Assembly: GCA_028284485.1 (NCBI GenBank)
Contig: JANQRQ010000269.1
Coordinates: 1 to 64,000, forward strand
Source: Planctomycetaceae bacterium
Lineage (GTDB): Bacteria; Planctomycetota; Planctomycetia; Planctomycetales; Planctomycetaceae
Length of the DNA: 64,000 bases
Direction: 5' to 3'
Shown: piece by piece, positions 937-31,650 of the stretch
How the letters are laid out: every line of letters begins with the position of its first letter
How positions within the stretch are numbered: position 1 is the first letter of the stretch
The notes under the pieces: generated by a model
What the model saw: only the letters and a program-made list of their open reading frames with translations
Told to the model about the DNA's origin: nothing
Databases searched by the model: none
Position numbers and translations under genes: made by a program

Positions 937-1611
937 CTACCCTCGCTTGGCGGACTTAGTCTTTCTCGCGACTCGGTAAGCGCATCGGCGGGCGCCTTCG
1001 ATGATGTGCTCGACTCGCTCGATGTCGATCTCATCGCCGAGGACTTGCTGAAAGACGGAAAGTTCGGCTCCGCACAGTCCCGTGCAGGCGGTGGCGGCTG
1101 CACAGATCGGGCAATGATTCTCGACGAACAAGAAGGAACCGTCATGGTTGTCGATGACTTCTGCCATGTAGCCTTCGTTACTTCGTATCTGAGAGAGTAT
1201 ATCGAGCCGTTTACGTAGCGATGCCCGTCGAGGCATTTTATCGCAATAGGCAGCGATTTGTTCACGCGTTCGAACGGCGAGAAGTTTTTCCAGGCCTTTG
1301 GCACCAAACGCCTGTGTCATCGATTGCACGAGGCCGACGGTCAACTCGGCATGGCCATCGGGGAAGAATCGGTCGGCGGCCGAGGTCAATTTCCAAAGCT
1401 TGACGGGGCGCCCCACCGGTTGTGGCTGTTCATCAAATGTGACGATTCTTTCATTCTGCAGCGCGTACAGATGCTGACGCACCGCCATGGCAGAAACGCC
1501 TACGTGCGCCGCGAGATCTCGCGCATCGCTCGGCCCCTCCTTTTTAAGCAGGTTGAGGATGACCTGACGCGAACGTTGTTTTGTCGGAGGCGGGGTTTGG
1601 GAACTGGGCAT
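937..1611 (-). CDS. SufR/COG2345-like winged-helix repressor with Fe-S-type cysteines
   Basis: This 224-residue protein has an N-terminal winged helix (about residues 12-75, including the recognition-helix segment DLAAHVGVSAMAVRQHLYAL). The C-terminal half carries cysteines at 167, 170, 176, 180 and 210 in the arrangement seen in SufR-like regulators that sense iron-sulfur or redox state. It is divergent from the Rieske and ferredoxin genes, so control of those genes is the natural inference. The ATG at 1611 has no ribosome binding site and lies at the predicted transcription start, suggesting a leaderless mRNA. A ligand other than an Fe-S cluster cannot be excluded. Confidence 0.82.
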   Translation of the reverse strand: MPSSQTPPPTKQRSRQVILNLLKKEGPSDARDLAAHVGVSAMAVRQHLYALQNERIVTFDEQPQPVGRPVKLWKLTSAADRFFPDGHAELTVGLVQSMTQAFGAKGLEKLLAVRTREQIAAYCDKMPRRASLRKRLDILSQIRSNEGYMAEVIDNHDGSFLFVENHCPICAAATACTGLCGAELSVFQQVLGDEIDIERVEHIIEGARRCAYRVARKTKSAKRG

Positions 1612-1745: not shown

Positions 1746-3320
1746 ATGACCTGGGTGAAGGCGACGACCGTCGAAGAGCTACAGAATTGTCCGCAGTTGT
1801 TCCGAGCGTCCCCCAAGCAGATTGCCTTGTTTCAAGTGGACGGCCGCTCCTTTGCCGTCGACAACCGTTGTCCTCATGAAGGGTATCCCTTGATCGAAGG
1901 CAGCGTCGACGAGGCGTGTCTGTTGACATGCAACTGGCACAACTGGAAGTTTCGCCTTGAGGACGGGCAGTGCGTTTTGGGGGGAGATCATGTGCGCTCG
2001 TATCCCACGCGCGAAGAAAACGGCGAAGTGTGGATCGATTTGAGTGATCCGCCAGCGGATGAATTGTTGGAGAAAACGCTGGTTGGCCTGAAGGTCGCAT
2101 TCGACGAGCGCGATTTCGGTCGGATTTGTCGTGAGATCACCCGGCTGCATTACTATCAACTCGATCCGGAGGTTGCCGTTTGGAAGGCGATCGAATGGTC
2201 GCACGACCGCTGGGAATTCGGCACGACTCATGCATATGCGGCGGCGGCCGATTGGTTGACTTTGGCGCGCGAGCAACACGAGATTTGGGATCGAAGGCTC
2301 GTTTGTTTGGCCGAAACTGTCGATCACATGGCGTTTGATGCGCTGCGGCGACCGCAGTTTCCTTATGCTGCGGTGGGTGACGAGTTCGATGCGGCAGCAT
2401 TTACCGAAGCCATTGAGGCGGAAGACCGGGAAACGGCAGAAGGCATGGTGCTGCGGGCTATGGGTGACGGATTGCATTGGCCCGAATTGGAGCCGGCCTT
2501 CACGAAGTCGGCTTTAGCCCACTACAACGATTTCGGGCATTCGCTGATTTATGTGTTGAAAACTCGGCAGTTGCTCGAGCAGGGTGGGGCGAAGCTGGAA
2601 CCATTTCTACTGCCAGCGCTGGCTCGCCATTTGATCTATACGACGCGCGAAGATTTGATTCCGGAATTTCAAGAATACGGAGCGGCGCTTGCGCAGATCG
2701 ACGAGCCGAACAAAGAGTTACCCGAATCCGGGGAATTGTTTGGTGCTTCCGTCCGGCAGGCATTGGAATGGGTGATTGTGCATCGCGCGAGCGAACCGGT
2801 GGAAGCAGTGTACGATCAACTGCTTTGTTGCTTGGCAAGGAATCTGTTGCACTACAACCTCGAGTGCGAATTCGTCGTGGAACAGCCGGTTAGCCGCAAC
2901 AAGAGTTGGCTGCACTTTACGCACGGCATTACGTTTGCGAATGCAGTGCGGGAAATGTGCAACACATATCCCGAATATTGGAATGCCGGTTTGTTGCAGA
3001 TGGCCTGCTTCATCGGCCGGAATCGTGGTTATCTGGACGAAGCGATCAACGAGTCGGAATGGTTTGTTGCCGATGACGATGAGTTTTTCGGCGAGGCGTT
3101 CGATCGAATTCTCGACCACGGACTGCGCGATCCGATCTTTTCGGCACATCTGCTGAAAACAACAATTGCCGTGCGAGATGAATGTGCGCACGCATCCGAT
3201 GATTGTGGGAAGTACTTACTGGCGGGGCTTAACCGATTTCTTCATTCGCCGATTAAACAGAAACATACCCGCCGGTTGGCGCATCAGGCGATTGCGTTGG
3301 TGAAGCGGGACTTCGACTGA
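1746..3320 (+). CDS. Rieske 2Fe-2S protein with a large unknown helical C-terminal domain
   Basis: Residues 1-100 are a Rieske fold with ligands C42-P-H44 and C62-N-W-H65, of the small ferredoxin-like type (AVDNRCPHEG, CNWHNWKF). Residues ~120-524 form a long, mostly helical domain that I do not recognise from a named family. It contains repeated His-rich segments (H149-150 region, GH265, LH390-F-T-H393). This domain appears related to the Tat protein encoded at 30115-31650. The gene is divergent from a SufR-like repressor and is followed after 157 bases by a ferredoxin, so an electron-transfer role is likely. There is no signal peptide, so the protein is cytoplasmic. The substrate is unknown. 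Confidence 0.85.
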   Translation: MTWVKATTVEELQNCPQLFRASPKQIALFQVDGRSFAVDNRCPHEGYPLIEGSVDEACLLTCNWHNWKFRLEDGQCVLGGDHVRSYPTREENGEVWIDLSDPPADELLEKTLVGLKVAFDERDFGRICREITRLHYYQLDPEVAVWKAIEWSHDRWEFGTTHAYAAAADWLTLAREQHEIWDRRLVCLAETVDHMAFDALRRPQFPYAAVGDEFDAAAFTEAIEAEDRETAEGMVLRAMGDGLHWPELEPAFTKSALAHYNDFGHSLIYVLKTRQLLEQGGAKLEPFLLPALARHLIYTTREDLIPEFQEYGAALAQIDEPNKELPESGELFGASVRQALEWVIVHRASEPVEAVYDQLLCCLARNLLHYNLECEFVVEQPVSRNKSWLHFTHGITFANAVREMCNTYPEYWNAGLLQMACFIGRNRGYLDEAINESEWFVADDDEFFGEAFDRILDHGLRDPIFSAHLLKTTIAVRDECAHASDDCGKYLLAGLNRFLHSPIKQKHTRRLAHQAIALVKRDFD

Positions 3321-4165: not shown

Positions 4166-5047
4166 ATGTTGAGTCGTCCACGAGTGAACCGCTACCAACG
4201 CGGATTCACGTTGATCGAGCTGTTGGTTGTCATCGCGATCATCGCGATTCTGATTTCCCTACTGATGCCCGCCGTGCAGCAGGCCCGCGAGGCCGCCCGC
4301 AGCACAAGCTGCCGGAACAATATGAAGCAAATTGGGCTGGCGATGCATAACTACCACGACGTCTACACGACGTTACCACTTGGTACGAACCCGCAGCTCT
4401 ATGGTCCGCTTGTCGCGATTCTACCGCATTTGGATCAGGCCGCCGTCCAGGACTTGTATGACTTCGATCTCTACTACACGAATCCAAAGAACCTGGAAGC
4501 GATTAATCGCTCGATTCCGCTTTATCTGTGTCCCACGATGATTCTGCCGCGTGGAGTTCCAAACGAGCCTTGCAACGAAGCGGGTGGACCGACGAGCTAC
4601 GGGGGCTCGATGGGGACGTCCGCGTCTGCGGACGACGGATTGTTCTCAGGGTACGGTGGCTTTAGGGCTCCAGTCCCGACACGGTTCAGGGATATTTCGG
4701 ACGGTATGACCAATACGATCATGTGTGGCGAATTCAACTATCAATTGCCGGACTACGTGTGGTCCGCCTTTAGTTGCCGGTCTGATCCTTCCGCAAGTGG
4801 CAAAGCCCGATTTGGCAGTTACCGGTGGGCGCCGGGTTACCCAGGAGTTTCGCTGGGCGATACGTCTGGTGACTTCAATGTGAACGAGAAAGCCAATCGA
4901 CTGACGTGGCGCAGTGACCATCATGGGGGAGCCAACTTTCTTTTGGCCGACGGTTCCGTGAAATTTGTTAACGAGAACATCGACTCGGAAGTGCTCGACA
5001 ATCTGGCAGCCCGGAATGACGGAGAGGTTGTTGCCGGCAGCTTCTGA
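4166..5047 (+). CDS. DUF1559 prepilin-like protein
   Basis: This 293-residue protein begins with a type IV prepilin-type leader: a basic N-terminus, then [17 protein letters not shown], with cleavage expected after the Gly at ~13. The DUF1559 domain follows, including [25 protein letters not shown] near the N-terminus and the C-terminal [15 protein letters not shown] signature. Planctomycetes carry many copies. Individual functions are unknown, but a pseudopilin-like surface or periplasmic role is inferred. A good GGAGG lies before the ATG. It is the first gene behind the Fur-like promoter. Confidence 0.95.
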
Positions 5048-5217
5048 TCGAGGAGATAGCGAGCGAGCAGTGGCCGCAGCTGGTTGTACGAATCTGAACC
5101 GGCATGCTGGAGTCTGATTTCACGACCCGACCGAGGTTTCCACATGCCGACTCGTATTTCGAGAGAAGTCGGCGTCCCTGATCGAGAGAATTGTTTAAAG
5201 AATTAAGGAATAGAACG

Positions 5218-5757
5218 GTGAACGTTTTTCATTCGGTACACCAGTATCGGAGCAATGGTCGTAGTCGCCAACTTGGCGTTACCGCGACACGGGAAGCGGC
5301 CCATCTGCGATTCACATGGTGTATTGTCAGTATTGTTGTGGTGGGCGCTCTGGGATGTGGATCGCAGGACGCGGATCCGCGAGGCGTGCGCGTTGCAGTG
5401 CACGGAAATGTAACATTGGACGGTACGCCTTTGTCGCGTGCCCGCATTGTCTTTTTGAGTGAAGGCGAAAAAGGGGCCGTCAAAGCGACCGGATCGATCG
5501 AAGACGGTACCTACCAGATCCCACAAGAGAATGGCCCTTTGGTCGGAAAATCGCGAGTTGAGATCTACTCTGAGATGGCAGACTTCGAAGAGTTCGAAGC
5601 GGCGAAAGCCTCGAACAAGCGAGTTACGAGACCGTCCGCAGTGTCGCGAATCCCGATCAACTACAATACACGGTCGACATTGACGGCTGATGTCCAAGAG
5701 CAAGAGGAAAACACGTTCGACTTCTCGCTAAAATCGGGAGCCGGGCGTCGCCGCTGA
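5218..5757 (+). CDS. Small lipoprotein with carboxypeptidase-regulatory-like beta domain
   Basis: The GTG at 5218 has an AAGGA about eight bases upstream and is preferred to the TTG at 5191. The product (179 residues) has an unusually long, basic N-terminus, then a hydrophobic stretch ending in the lipobox GALGC, so it should be lipid-anchored. The rest is a small beta-sandwich-like domain (VHGNVTLDGTPLSRARIVF...), as found in proteins that commonly follow DUF1559 genes in planctomycetes. It lies 170 bases after the DUF1559 gene. A structural or ligand-binding role at the cell surface is inferred. Confidence 0.8.
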   Translation: MNVFHSVHQYRSNGRSRQLGVTATREAAHLRFTWCIVSIVVVGALGCGSQDADPRGVRVAVHGNVTLDGTPLSRARIVFLSEGEKGAVKATGSIEDGTYQIPQENGPLVGKSRVEIYSEMADFEEFEAAKASNKRVTRPSAVSRIPINYNTRSTLTADVQEQEENTFDFSLKSGAGRRR

Positions 5758-5914
5758 TTCACCCATTTGGGGGACGTCGATATCTGGATCGTCTCAGTCC
5801 ATGACTTCGTAGAATGTTATTGAACTTTCATTACCTGGTTTGTTGATTCGGCAATTGAATATGACGTCTGACAAGTCTGCTGTCGGGCTATCCACGATCG
5901 AAAGGATCACAGAA

Positions 5915-7564
5915 ATGAGTTTCAAACGGATGATAATGCTGGCATTGGCGGCGGTCGTCGCCGTTCCTCAACTGGCGCAGGCGCATTTCCCCTGGCTGGT
6001 TGTGGATGAGGGGCACGGCAAACTGGGGGTTTACTTCGGTGAACTGGCGGAACCAGACGATCCGGCCATGCTCAAGTATTTGGAGGGATCGCAGGCCTGG
6101 GCCGTTGCGTCGAAACGTGCGCCGCAGGAAATCTCTCTGGCACGAACGGAAGAGGAATTCTCTGGTGACATTCCCGGTGAGGTCGACGGACGGCAACTGT
6201 TTGTTTTGCATAAGGACTTTGGAATCTTCAGTCGCGGCGATACGCCGTTTCGCCTGCAATACTACGCCAAGACGGGACCAGCTCTGGTAAGCAGTGCATG
6301 GAGCGAAGTCGATTGCGGAAAGCTGATGCCGTTGGACCTCATTCCTGAACGCGATGGCGGGGAAGTTCGGATTCAAGTATTGTGGCATGGCAAGCCGGAT
6401 GCCGGCGCCGAAGTCAATGTGTCCGGACCTGGTATCGAGGATGTGGAGGCGACCAGCGACAAGAAGGGCTGGGTTCGTTTCGAATTAGGCGATGCCGGGT
6501 TATATTCCATCCGGGCCAAGCATGTGGAAGACGAGTCGGGCACGATCGATGGCAAATCTTTTTCGGATGTGCGACATTACTCGACATTGGCGCTTCGAGT
6601 GGGAAAAACCGAACCGGCGAAACAGGTGAGTAAGAAGTCGAACATCTCTGAAGAATCGTCGGTCTTTGCTGATCTTCCTGAATTGGTGACCAGCTTCGGG
6701 GCTGCCATTGCCGATTCGAATCTGTACGTTTTTGGGGGACATACCGGAGACGCGCACCAGTATTGGAACGAATCTCAAGCTGACACCTTATGGCGATTGA
6801 ATCTGAGTGGCAGCGGCAAATGGGAGGCCGTCATAAAAGGTCCCCGTTTGCAGGGTCTGGCGTTAGTGGCTCATGAGGGCCAGCTTTACCGCCTGGGTGG
6901 ATTCACTGCGAAGAATGCCGAGGGCGAAGAGCACGATTTGTGGTCACAAGATACGGTATCGCGATTTGATCCCAAACAGGATGAATGGTCACCGATGCCA
7001 GCCCTTCCGGAAGCTCGCTCGTCGTTTGACGCGGCTGTGTTGGACGGAACCATATTTGTCGTGGGTGGATGGAATTTACACGGTGGCAGTGAATCGCATT
7101 GGCACGAAACGGCCCATGCACTCAATTTGTCCGAAGATCACCCTCAATGGAAGCCGCTGCCCCAACCACCGTTTCAACGGCGGGCATTGTCGGTGGCTGC
7201 TCACAACGGGCGGGTCTACGCGATCGGCGGAATGCAAATGGAAGATGGTCCAACGACGCGAGTTGACATCTTCGACCCTGCCACAGGCGAGTGGTCGCTC
7301 GGCCCCAGCTTGAACGGTGAGCCGATGGAAGGTTTCGGTAGCGCAGCTTTTGCCGTCGGCGGCCAGTTGTTTGTCAGTACGATTCGTGGGAATCTGCAGC
7401 GTTTGTCTGAAGATGGCTCCCAATGGGAGAACATCCACAAGTTGGAGCGATCCCGCTTCTTTCATCGCATGCTTCCATTGTCTGCAGACAAGCTGCTGTT
7501 TGTGGGTGGGGCCGACATGTCGGTGGGCAAATTTGCCGAGCTTGATGTGGTTGATGTGGATTAA
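5915..7564 (+). CDS. Exported DUF4198 plus kelch-repeat protein
   Basis: The ATG at 5915 (AAAGGA upstream) gives a clean signal peptide ending AQA at residue 23. Residues ~24-215 match the DUF4198 pattern (HFPWLVVDEG, later a beta-sandwich segment). Such domains are often found with metal, especially nickel, cobalt or iron, uptake genes. Residues ~235-545 form a kelch beta-propeller with repeated YVFGGHTG, YRLGGFTA, FVVGGWNLHG, YAIGGMQM and LFVGGADM blades. The fusion suggests a periplasmic or surface binding protein. It is the third gene behind the Fur-like operator, consistent with metal control. Confidence 0.85.
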   Translation: MSFKRMIMLALAAVVAVPQLAQAHFPWLVVDEGHGKLGVYFGELAEPDDPAMLKYLEGSQAWAVASKRAPQEISLARTEEEFSGDIPGEVDGRQLFVLHKDFGIFSRGDTPFRLQYYAKTGPALVSSAWSEVDCGKLMPLDLIPERDGGEVRIQVLWHGKPDAGAEVNVSGPGIEDVEATSDKKGWVRFELGDAGLYSIRAKHVEDESGTIDGKSFSDVRHYSTLALRVGKTEPAKQVSKKSNISEESSVFADLPELVTSFGAAIADSNLYVFGGHTGDAHQYWNESQADTLWRLNLSGSGKWEAVIKGPRLQGLALVAHEGQLYRLGGFTAKNAEGEEHDLWSQDTVSRFDPKQDEWSPMPALPEARSSFDAAVLDGTIFVVGGWNLHGGSESHWHETAHALNLSEDHPQWKPLPQPPFQRRALSVAAHNGRVYAIGGMQMEDGPTTRVDIFDPATGEWSLGPSLNGEPMEGFGSAAFAVGGQLFVSTIRGNLQRLSEDGSQWENIHKLERSRFFHRMLPLSADKLLFVGGADMSVGKFAELDVVDVD

Positions 7565-30114: not shown

Positions 30115-31650
30115 ATGGCGACTCGGAGCACGCGGCGACAATTCATACAGACAGCAACGACCGGTGGAACACTGTTGGGGATCGGCGGACTTTCGTTTCT
30201 ATCTCGACTTCCGCGAGTATCGGCCGATGAGGCTCGGCTGGACCCGAAGCTTGTCCAATTCCAGCCGGAAATCGAACCACTCGTGCGGCTAATCGAAGAG
30301 ACGCCACGCAATAAGGTATTGGAGAAGATCGCCAGTCAGATTCATGCGGGCACTTCGTATCGCGAAATCTTGGGCGCATTGCTGCTCGCCGGCGTGCGAA
30401 ATGTGCAGCCGCGTCCTTCTGTGGGATTCAAATTTCACGCGGTGCTGGTCGTCAACTCAGCTCATTTGGCGAGTTTGAATTCGCCCGAGAGTGATCGGTG
30501 GCTGCCGATCTTTTGGGCGATCGATAATTTTAAGTCGTCACAAGCTGACGAAAGTAAGAACAGTGGCTGGCGAATGAAGCCGGTCGAAGAAGACCGAGTT
30601 CCCTCGGCAACCCATGCGCGTCAAGCGTTTATCGAGGCGATGGAGAATTGGGACCAAGAAGCAGTCGACGCCGCTGTTGCAGGATTGGCTCGACACGCAG
30701 GTGCGAATGAGATCTTCGAGTTGTTCTATCGATTTGGTTCGCGCGATTATCGTTCGATTGGGCACAAGGCAATTTTTGTGGCCAATAGCTGCCGGACGTT
30801 GCAGTCCATCGGCTGGAGGTATGCCGAGCCAGTGCTGCGGTCCCTCGCGTATGCGCTCGTGAATCACACGGGCGAGCCGAATCCCGCGAAAAGCGATTTG
30901 GGACCAGATCATTCCTGGCGAGTGAACCAGGAACTCGCGGCAGAGATTCCGAAAAACTGGTTGGAGGGAAAGCTAAGCGAATCGGCAACCAATGACTTGT
31001 TGGCGACATTGCGCAGCGGAACCAACGACGATGCGTCGGCCAAAGCGGCAGAACTACTGGCTGCAGGAGTCTCGCCGCAATCCGTGTGGGATGCAGTATT
31101 TGTCGGGGCCGGAGAATTGCTGATGCGCCAGCCGGGCATCATCGGTTTGCATTCGCTAACGACGGCCAATGCCATTCATTACGCCTTTCAGGCGAGTGGG
31201 AACGACAAAACACGCCGCTTCCTGTTATTGCAGGCATGCTCGTTCCTGCCGATGTTTCAGCAGTCGGCCAAAGGTCGAGGCAAACTTCAAGATCGGACCG
31301 TCGACGATTTGAGTGCCGTGGCTCTTCAACGCGGCGACGCTACCGGCGCACCTGCCGAGATATTTGCTGACGTGAGCGGCAATCGTATGCGTGCGGCTGG
31401 TAAAATCCGCGCCTACCTCGATTCCGGCGGGGATCCTCGCGAGCTAATCAATACCGCTCAACGACTGATCTTCCTGAAAGGACGCGATTCCCACGATTAC
31501 AAGTTCAGTTCGGCTGTGTTGGAAGACTACTACCACGTCAGCCCGCAATGGCGCGATCGTTTCCTGGCCACGAGTGTCTTCAACTTGAAAGGATCGGGCG
31601 ACCGAGACAGTGGCGTCGTCGAGCGGACGCGGGCAGCCTTGGATTCATAA
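30115..31650 (+). CDS. Tat-exported protein with domain shared with the Rieske C-terminus
   Basis: A Tat signal (STRRQFIQTA) with strong AGGAGG starts this 511-residue, mainly helical protein of no named family I can recognise. Segments ~170-250 and ~320-380 align by eye with residues 219-300 and 351-424 of the Rieske protein at 1746-3320. Examples are AFIEAMENWDQEA vs AFTEAIEAEDRET, the shared GH (here H217), EPVLRSLAYALV vs EPFLLPALARHL, and LHSLTTANAI vs LHFTHGITFANAV. This suggests a common domain with conserved His residues, possibly metal or heme related. No catalytic motif is evident. Confidence 0.75.
   Translation: MATRSTRRQFIQTATTGGTLLGIGGLSFLSRLPRVSADEARLDPKLVQFQPEIEPLVRLIEETPRNKVLEKIASQIHAGTSYREILGALLLAGVRNVQPRPSVGFKFHAVLVVNSAHLASLNSPESDRWLPIFWAIDNFKSSQADESKNSGWRMKPVEEDRVPSATHARQAFIEAMENWDQEAVDAAVAGLARHAGANEIFELFYRFGSRDYRSIGHKAIFVANSCRTLQSIGWRYAEPVLRSLAYALVNHTGEPNPAKSDLGPDHSWRVNQELAAEIPKNWLEGKLSESATNDLLATLRSGTNDDASAKAAELLAAGVSPQSVWDAVFVGAGELLMRQPGIIGLHSLTTANAIHYAFQASGNDKTRRFLLLQACSFLPMFQQSAKGRGKLQDRTVDDLSAVALQRGDATGAPAEIFADVSGNRMRAAGKIRAYLDSGGDPRELINTAQRLIFLKGRDSHDYKFSSAVLEDYYHVSPQWRDRFLATSVFNLKGSGDRDSGVVERTRAALDS

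Follow-up and report, generated by a model that had tools for sequence, protein, structure and literature searches.

A Rieske protein and a Tat-signal protein of a planctomycete share a domain with a predicted questin oxidase fold

Two proteins encoded in the window, by which we mean the whole 64,000-nucleotide stretch of Planctomycetaceae DNA analyzed here, share a helical domain that resembles, in bacterial form, a ring-cleaving iron dioxygenase of fungi and is predicted to hold a non-haem iron. In our main reading, to which we assign a probability of about 60%, P0001 is an iron oxygenase fed by its own Rieske domain and containing a catalytic domain of the questin oxidase type, whose substrates may be quinones or hydroquinones, and P0002 is an exported paralogue. 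The homology of the two proteins, the predicted fold, the conserved residues, the Rieske fusion and the linkage to regulator genes are computed results.

Homology of P0001 and P0002

The preliminary description of this DNA had located both open reading frames, which were found at the same positions (Table 1), and had proposed that they share a domain. By BLASTP, residues 218–302 of P0001 and 171–254 of P0002 showed 27% identity with an E-value of 0.004, which, as one pair picked from many, is marginal and unconvincing alone. This leaves room for a chance likeness between two helical proteins, a reading whose probability becomes practically nil with the profile comparison, by which it was ruled out: when 53 sequences of the Rieske family were compared by hhalign with 15 of the Tat family, the probability was 94 and the E-value 9.1e-8 across 294 columns, recovery by HMM was reciprocal, and all four histidines were aligned. 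The pairs H265/H217, H393/H346 and H468/H460 were in register in the hhalign alignment, and so were both segments that had been aligned by eye before, the domain being larger than they suggested. An iterative HMM search seeded by residues 101–524 of P0001 alone reached the Tat family with E-values of 1e-40 to 1e-105. When 294 genomes of the phylum were searched by tblastn with P0002, Rieske fusions in the genomes G016, G052 and G067 were matched (E 1e-4 to 8e-4), which are matched by P0001 as well. P0001 and P0002 are homologous, as these comparisons and the tree described below strongly support, and the shared domain comprises about 400 residues (about 119–515 of P0001 and 44–491 of P0002). 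No Pfam model fits it, in agreement with its earlier designation as unnamed; its fold can be named, however, after BTG13, AflY and PaD.

Table 1. Features of P0001, P0002 and the neighboring genes in the window.
Feature	Position	Strand	Basis or remark
SufR-like winged-helix regulator, divergent, with Fe-S-type cysteine motif CPICAAATACTGLC	937–1611	-	HTH_5
Presumed operator copy 1, TTTATAAAGAATTATCTTTACAAA	1618–1641	.	pattern TTTNNAAAG-N6-CTTTNNAAA
Presumed operator copy 2, TTTGTAAAGGATTTTCTTTTGAAA	1662–1685	.	genome pattern search
P0001, Rieske [2Fe-2S] domain and helical domain of predicted questin oxidase fold	1746–3320	+	524 aa ORF
P0001 Rieske domain, residues 1–101	1746–2048	+	Pfam PF00355, E 2.9e-16
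P0001 helical catalytic-type domain, residues 119–515	2100–3290	+	fold match 8yxs
P0001 H162, candidate metal ligand	2229–2231	+	75/75
P0001 H265, candidate metal ligand	2538–2540	+	75/75
P0001 H393, candidate metal ligand	2922–2924	+	75/75
P0001 T396, HxxT motif	2931–2933	+	75/75
P0001 H468, candidate metal ligand	3147–3149	+	75/75
P0001 K471, candidate metal ligand	3156–3158	+	75/75
Plant-type [2Fe-2S] ferredoxin, 76 nt downstream of P0001	3397–3837	+	Fer2, E 3.2e-10
P0002, Tat-signal protein of the same domain superfamily, without Rieske domain	30115–31650	+	511 aa ORF
P0002 twin-arginine signal region, RR at residues 7–8	30115–30228	+	NCBIfam TIGR01409
P0002 H108, candidate metal ligand	30436–30438	+	
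P0002 H217, candidate metal ligand	30763–30765	+	
P0002 H346, candidate metal ligand	31150–31152	+	
P0002 T349, HxxT motif	31159–31161	+	
P0002 H460, candidate metal ligand	31492–31494	+	
P0002 K463, candidate metal ligand	31501–31503	+	

The N-terminal part of P0001 has the CxH and CxxH motifs of a Rieske protein, and the cluster ligands C42, H44, C62 and H65 do not vary in 75 of 75 P0001-type proteins. The fusion itself was present in all retrieved P0001-type loci with an intact reading frame (77/77). A Tat signal is absent from P0001, whereas that of P0002 scored 18.1 bits with TIGR01409 (NCBIfam cut-off 16.7) and its two arginines are unvarying across 15 orthologues, so that the domain probably occurs in both cytoplasm and periplasm, as had been supposed. 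Two further P0002 paralogues are encoded in the same genome (L066:3727–5244 and L067:1319–2863). A scan of viral contigs for the Tat family found no member, and the gene neighborhood of P0002 was not informative on function.

Predicted Fold of the Shared Domain

The AlphaFold2 model of P0001 (pLDDT 95, pTM 0.92) is nearly all helical between residues 104 and 520. By VIA-align, residues 1 to about 103 matched Rieske ferredoxins with a Z-score of 17.7 at 1.4 Å, residues 1–102 superposing on BphA3, the toluene dioxygenase ferredoxin and NirD; with its fused domain, P0001 has five times their length. Residues 128–515 matched the non-haem iron dioxygenase AflY (8yxs) with a Z-score of 17.4 over 330 residues at 4.5 Å, and the hydroquinone dioxygenase PaD (8z4q/8z4r) was matched with a Z-score of 15 over about 330 residues. 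The AlphaFold model of P0002 (pLDDT 74, pTM 0.75) was built with rows of the P0001 family, trimmed at residue 495 to keep H460 in register, and the two models are therefore not independent. Its five best entries were 7y3w, 7y3x, 8yxs, 8z4q and 8z4r (Z 12.6–14.5, 319–333 residues), and the sixth-ranked match spans just 95 residues.

These alignments lie at 4–5 Å and 8–10% identity, and since helical folds carry high background Z-scores, we placed weight on the coverage of the full domain, on the single family at the top and on the ligand residues. Foldseek gave no significant match with the P0002 model, and for P0001 its list was occupied by Rieske entries. Taken as models, the two structures strongly suggest that the shared domain has the fold of the questin oxidase family (PF14027; BTG13, 7y3w/7y3x/7y3y; AflY; PaD; GedK), with about 330 residues of an all-helical arrangement in common; both predictions matched the same solved fold rather than different ones. 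Within residues 49–257 of P0002 (window:30259–30885), sub-bundles resemble the clamp-loader collar and the C-terminal domain of MgsA, which probably reflects a common helical arrangement.

Candidate Metal Site

In the PDB, BTG13 and PaD are matched by a profile built from bacterial questin oxidases. Counted from the profile alignment, the BTG13 residues H58, H158, H296-M-V-T299 and H374-L-A-K377 have their counterparts in H162, H265, H393-G-I-T396 and H468-L-L-K471 of P0001 and in H108, H217, H346-S-L-T349 and H460-D-Y-K463 of P0002. The intervals between the residues are 103, 128, 75 and 3 in P0001 compared to 100, 138, 78 and 3 in BTG13, and in the sequence comparison order, local spacing, HxxT and HxxK are kept in both window proteins. 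We take BTG13 to bind iron via its four histidines and a carboxylated Lys377. The entry 7y3x is the H58F mutant of BTG13 and the sequence of 7y3y has Val at T299, indicating that these positions mattered to the depositors. The correspondence argues strongly, at the level of sequence, that the conserved residues of P0001 and P0002 are equivalent to the ligand set of BTG13, and together with the predicted fold it suggests that the histidines form one metal site.

In a comparison of 55 sequences, the equivalents of H265, H393 and H468 were present in 54, and the first His (H162/H108) and the Lys (K471/K463) did not vary in the non-Rieske set. H265 and H217, to which the preliminary description had drawn attention, are among the near-invariant residues and are candidate metal ligands. 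H162, H259, H265, H393, T396, H468 and K471 showed no variation in 75 full-length P0001-type proteins; HxxD replaces HxxT in 14 of 33 non-Rieske members. In the tree, Rieske and non-Rieske members fell into two clades, of 22 and 30 rows, respectively, each supported at 100/99. The former is divided into subclade I, which includes P0001 and retains HHHTHK, and subclade II, in which H162 is lost and Gln replaces K471. The loss of H162 and the exchange of Lys for Gln are also seen in four homologues, found in Priestia, haloarchaea and Paraburkholderia, that bear no annotation other than Rieske protein. The full site is therefore not required by the Rieske fusion. The Tat branch without Rieske domain retains all five ligand positions.

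Two Rieske fusions of genome G141 lie in tandem (L069:3104–4885 and 4930–6726). In the first copy the four histidines and the Lys/Gln position are gone (SQRAPL), and this copy perhaps serves the adjoining one as a pseudo-enzyme partner.

That tandem copy without any ligand residue and the two missing ligands in subclade II would suit a domain that is a non-catalytic helical scaffold with structural histidines. We consider this highly improbable, since four scattered histidines and one lysine are near-invariant in two clades with about 16% identity, and the conserved positions match those of a known metal enzyme. Alternatively, the domain could bind a metal and yet not be an oxygenase, but act, for instance, as a hydrolase or isomerase that depends on the metal, or serve to store haem or metal; a common fold shows no function, and fold identity is just 8–10%. 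The matches are, however, iron dioxygenases sharing the HxxT and HxxK motifs, and the Rieske partner and the redox-sensing regulators described below indicate redox chemistry, which makes this second explanation distinctly unlikely.

Relation to PF14027 at the Sequence Level

In contrast to the questin oxidases, P0001 and P0002 have no sequence match to PF14027: neither protein was matched at an E-value of 1 or better, the model was not listed among the domains of 52 superfamily members, and a search of the own genome gave no match. Comparison of bacterial questin oxidases with the P0001 and P0002 families by hhalign was weak (probability 15 or less), and searches of the PDB with the family profiles gave no or spurious sequence-profile matches. 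Because the hhalign result is weak, we do not claim membership in PF14027 by sequence, and judged by the Pfam model P0001 and P0002 are not members. Compared to this family, P0001 has an additional Rieske domain and P0002 an additional Tat signal. A planctomycete PF14027 protein (L168:874–2034, minus strand) carries a Tat-like signal (RRDFLVQTSAAGALGALG), and export is thus seen among true questin oxidases as well.

Gene Neighborhood and Presumed Operator

The regulator gene divergent to P0001 encodes a protein scoring 120.2 bits with the SufR model TIGR02702, and as this lies under the equivalog cut-off of 178.8, we call it SufR-like only and reject its assignment as a SufR equivalog. A SufR-like divergent neighbor is also found in 12 other loci, and in seven gammaproteobacterial loci SoxR takes its place (equivalog, 214 bits versus a cut-off of 117). 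Near the tandem fusions of G141, which belong to subclade II, a SufR-like regulator is encoded at L069:8050–8772 (144 bits with TIGR02702). A textbook SoxR box was not found when the SoxR-linked intergenic regions were searched with simple patterns.

Across the 7.7 Mb genome, the palindrome TTTNNAAAG-N6-CTTTNNAAA matches at only two places, which both lie between the regulator gene and P0001. It is also present in seven other loci, each time immediately upstream of the Rieske gene, which is partly so by construction because the pattern was derived from some of these loci; this does not apply to its restriction to this region of the genome or to the copies in L119, L122 and L151. The ferredoxin encoded downstream of P0001, whose true start may be a later ATG, is a possible electron donor. 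No convincing ferredoxin gene adjoins the other Rieske-fusion loci.

Proposed Function

Like the alpha subunits of Rieske non-haem iron oxygenases, P0001 combines an N-terminal PF00355 domain and a predicted non-haem iron domain in one chain. The latter is all-helical with four predicted His ligands and a Lys, whereas the Rieske oxygenases have a helix-grip fold with two His and one carboxylate, and no Pfam match to their catalytic domain (Ring_hydroxyl_A) was obtained in P0001. We therefore rejected the assignment of P0001 as a classical Rieske oxygenase. P0001 most likely works like a cross of a questin oxidase and a Rieske oxygenase.

In the mechanism that we infer, the shared domain would hold one non-haem iron by four His and one probably carboxylated Lys, and in P0001 electrons would pass from the Rieske cluster to this iron, which would activate O2 for the oxidation of a quinone, a hydroquinone or a similar aromatic compound. 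That P0001 is a Rieske-fed oxygenase is probable; the quinone as its substrate is a guess. In fungi, GedK cleaves questin hydroquinone after a separate NADPH reductase, GedF, has made the hydroquinone (PMC9890505). The Rieske domain of P0001, perhaps fed by the adjoining ferredoxin, could replace such a reductase, and in the same chain it might act by reducing the quinone or by supplying electrons to the iron itself. Expression would be set by the local regulators of the Fe-S-cluster type, SufR-like here and SoxR in gammaproteobacteria, and would answer oxidants, redox cyclers or Fe-S damage. SoxR responds to redox-cycling compounds such as quinones, and a quinone or hydroquinone substrate would fit with this. 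The exported P0002, having the five ligand positions and no Rieske domain, would work beyond the cytoplasm, with a substrate able to supply the electrons itself.

With the same fold and metal site, the Rieske domain might instead merely sense the redox state or reduce free quinone, and dioxygenation by the helical domain would, like that of BTG13 and PaD, proceed without electrons from outside. The fungal relatives handle hydroquinones without a Rieske partner (PMC9890505), the Tat branch has all five ligands and no Rieske domain, and the regulators adjoining P0001 are Fe-S sensors. The unbroken fusion in all 77 intact loci and the unvarying Rieske site suggest, however, a tight functional coupling, and we think this alternative rather unlikely.

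A broader proposal goes beyond the Rieske-fed oxygenase that we favor for P0001, and we put it forward tentatively, at somewhat less than even odds: the fusions would form, in several bacterial phyla, a second class of Rieske oxygenases that arose independently of the first, with a four-His/(carboxylated) Lys iron site in a questin oxidase fold, a sister subclade, also in haloarchaea and Priestia, with three His and Gln, and a role in defence against quinones or redox cyclers that is induced via SoxR or SufR-like regulators. To our knowledge, Rieske oxygenases have one catalytic fold. We found no paper that links a Rieske domain to the questin oxidase fold, and relative to the databases and literature searched the fusion would be a new kind of oxygenase. 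If true, the Rieske strategy of electron delivery arose more than once, and the sites with four His and Lys or three His and Gln would offer a natural comparison of iron-site tuning. The proposal would also provide a testable function for a family that, in cultured bacteria and archaea, carries no annotation beyond "Rieske (2Fe-2S) protein", connect the SoxR and SufR-like circuits of bacteria with an enzyme predicted to oxidize aromatic compounds, and tie an uncharacterized Tat-signal family of planctomycetes to the same predicted chemistry.

Genome G171 contains a candidate pathway cluster (L170:5898–13209), in which Rieske-fusion genes stand in one row with genes for a VOC-like protein and a true questin oxidase of PF14027, all on the same strand.
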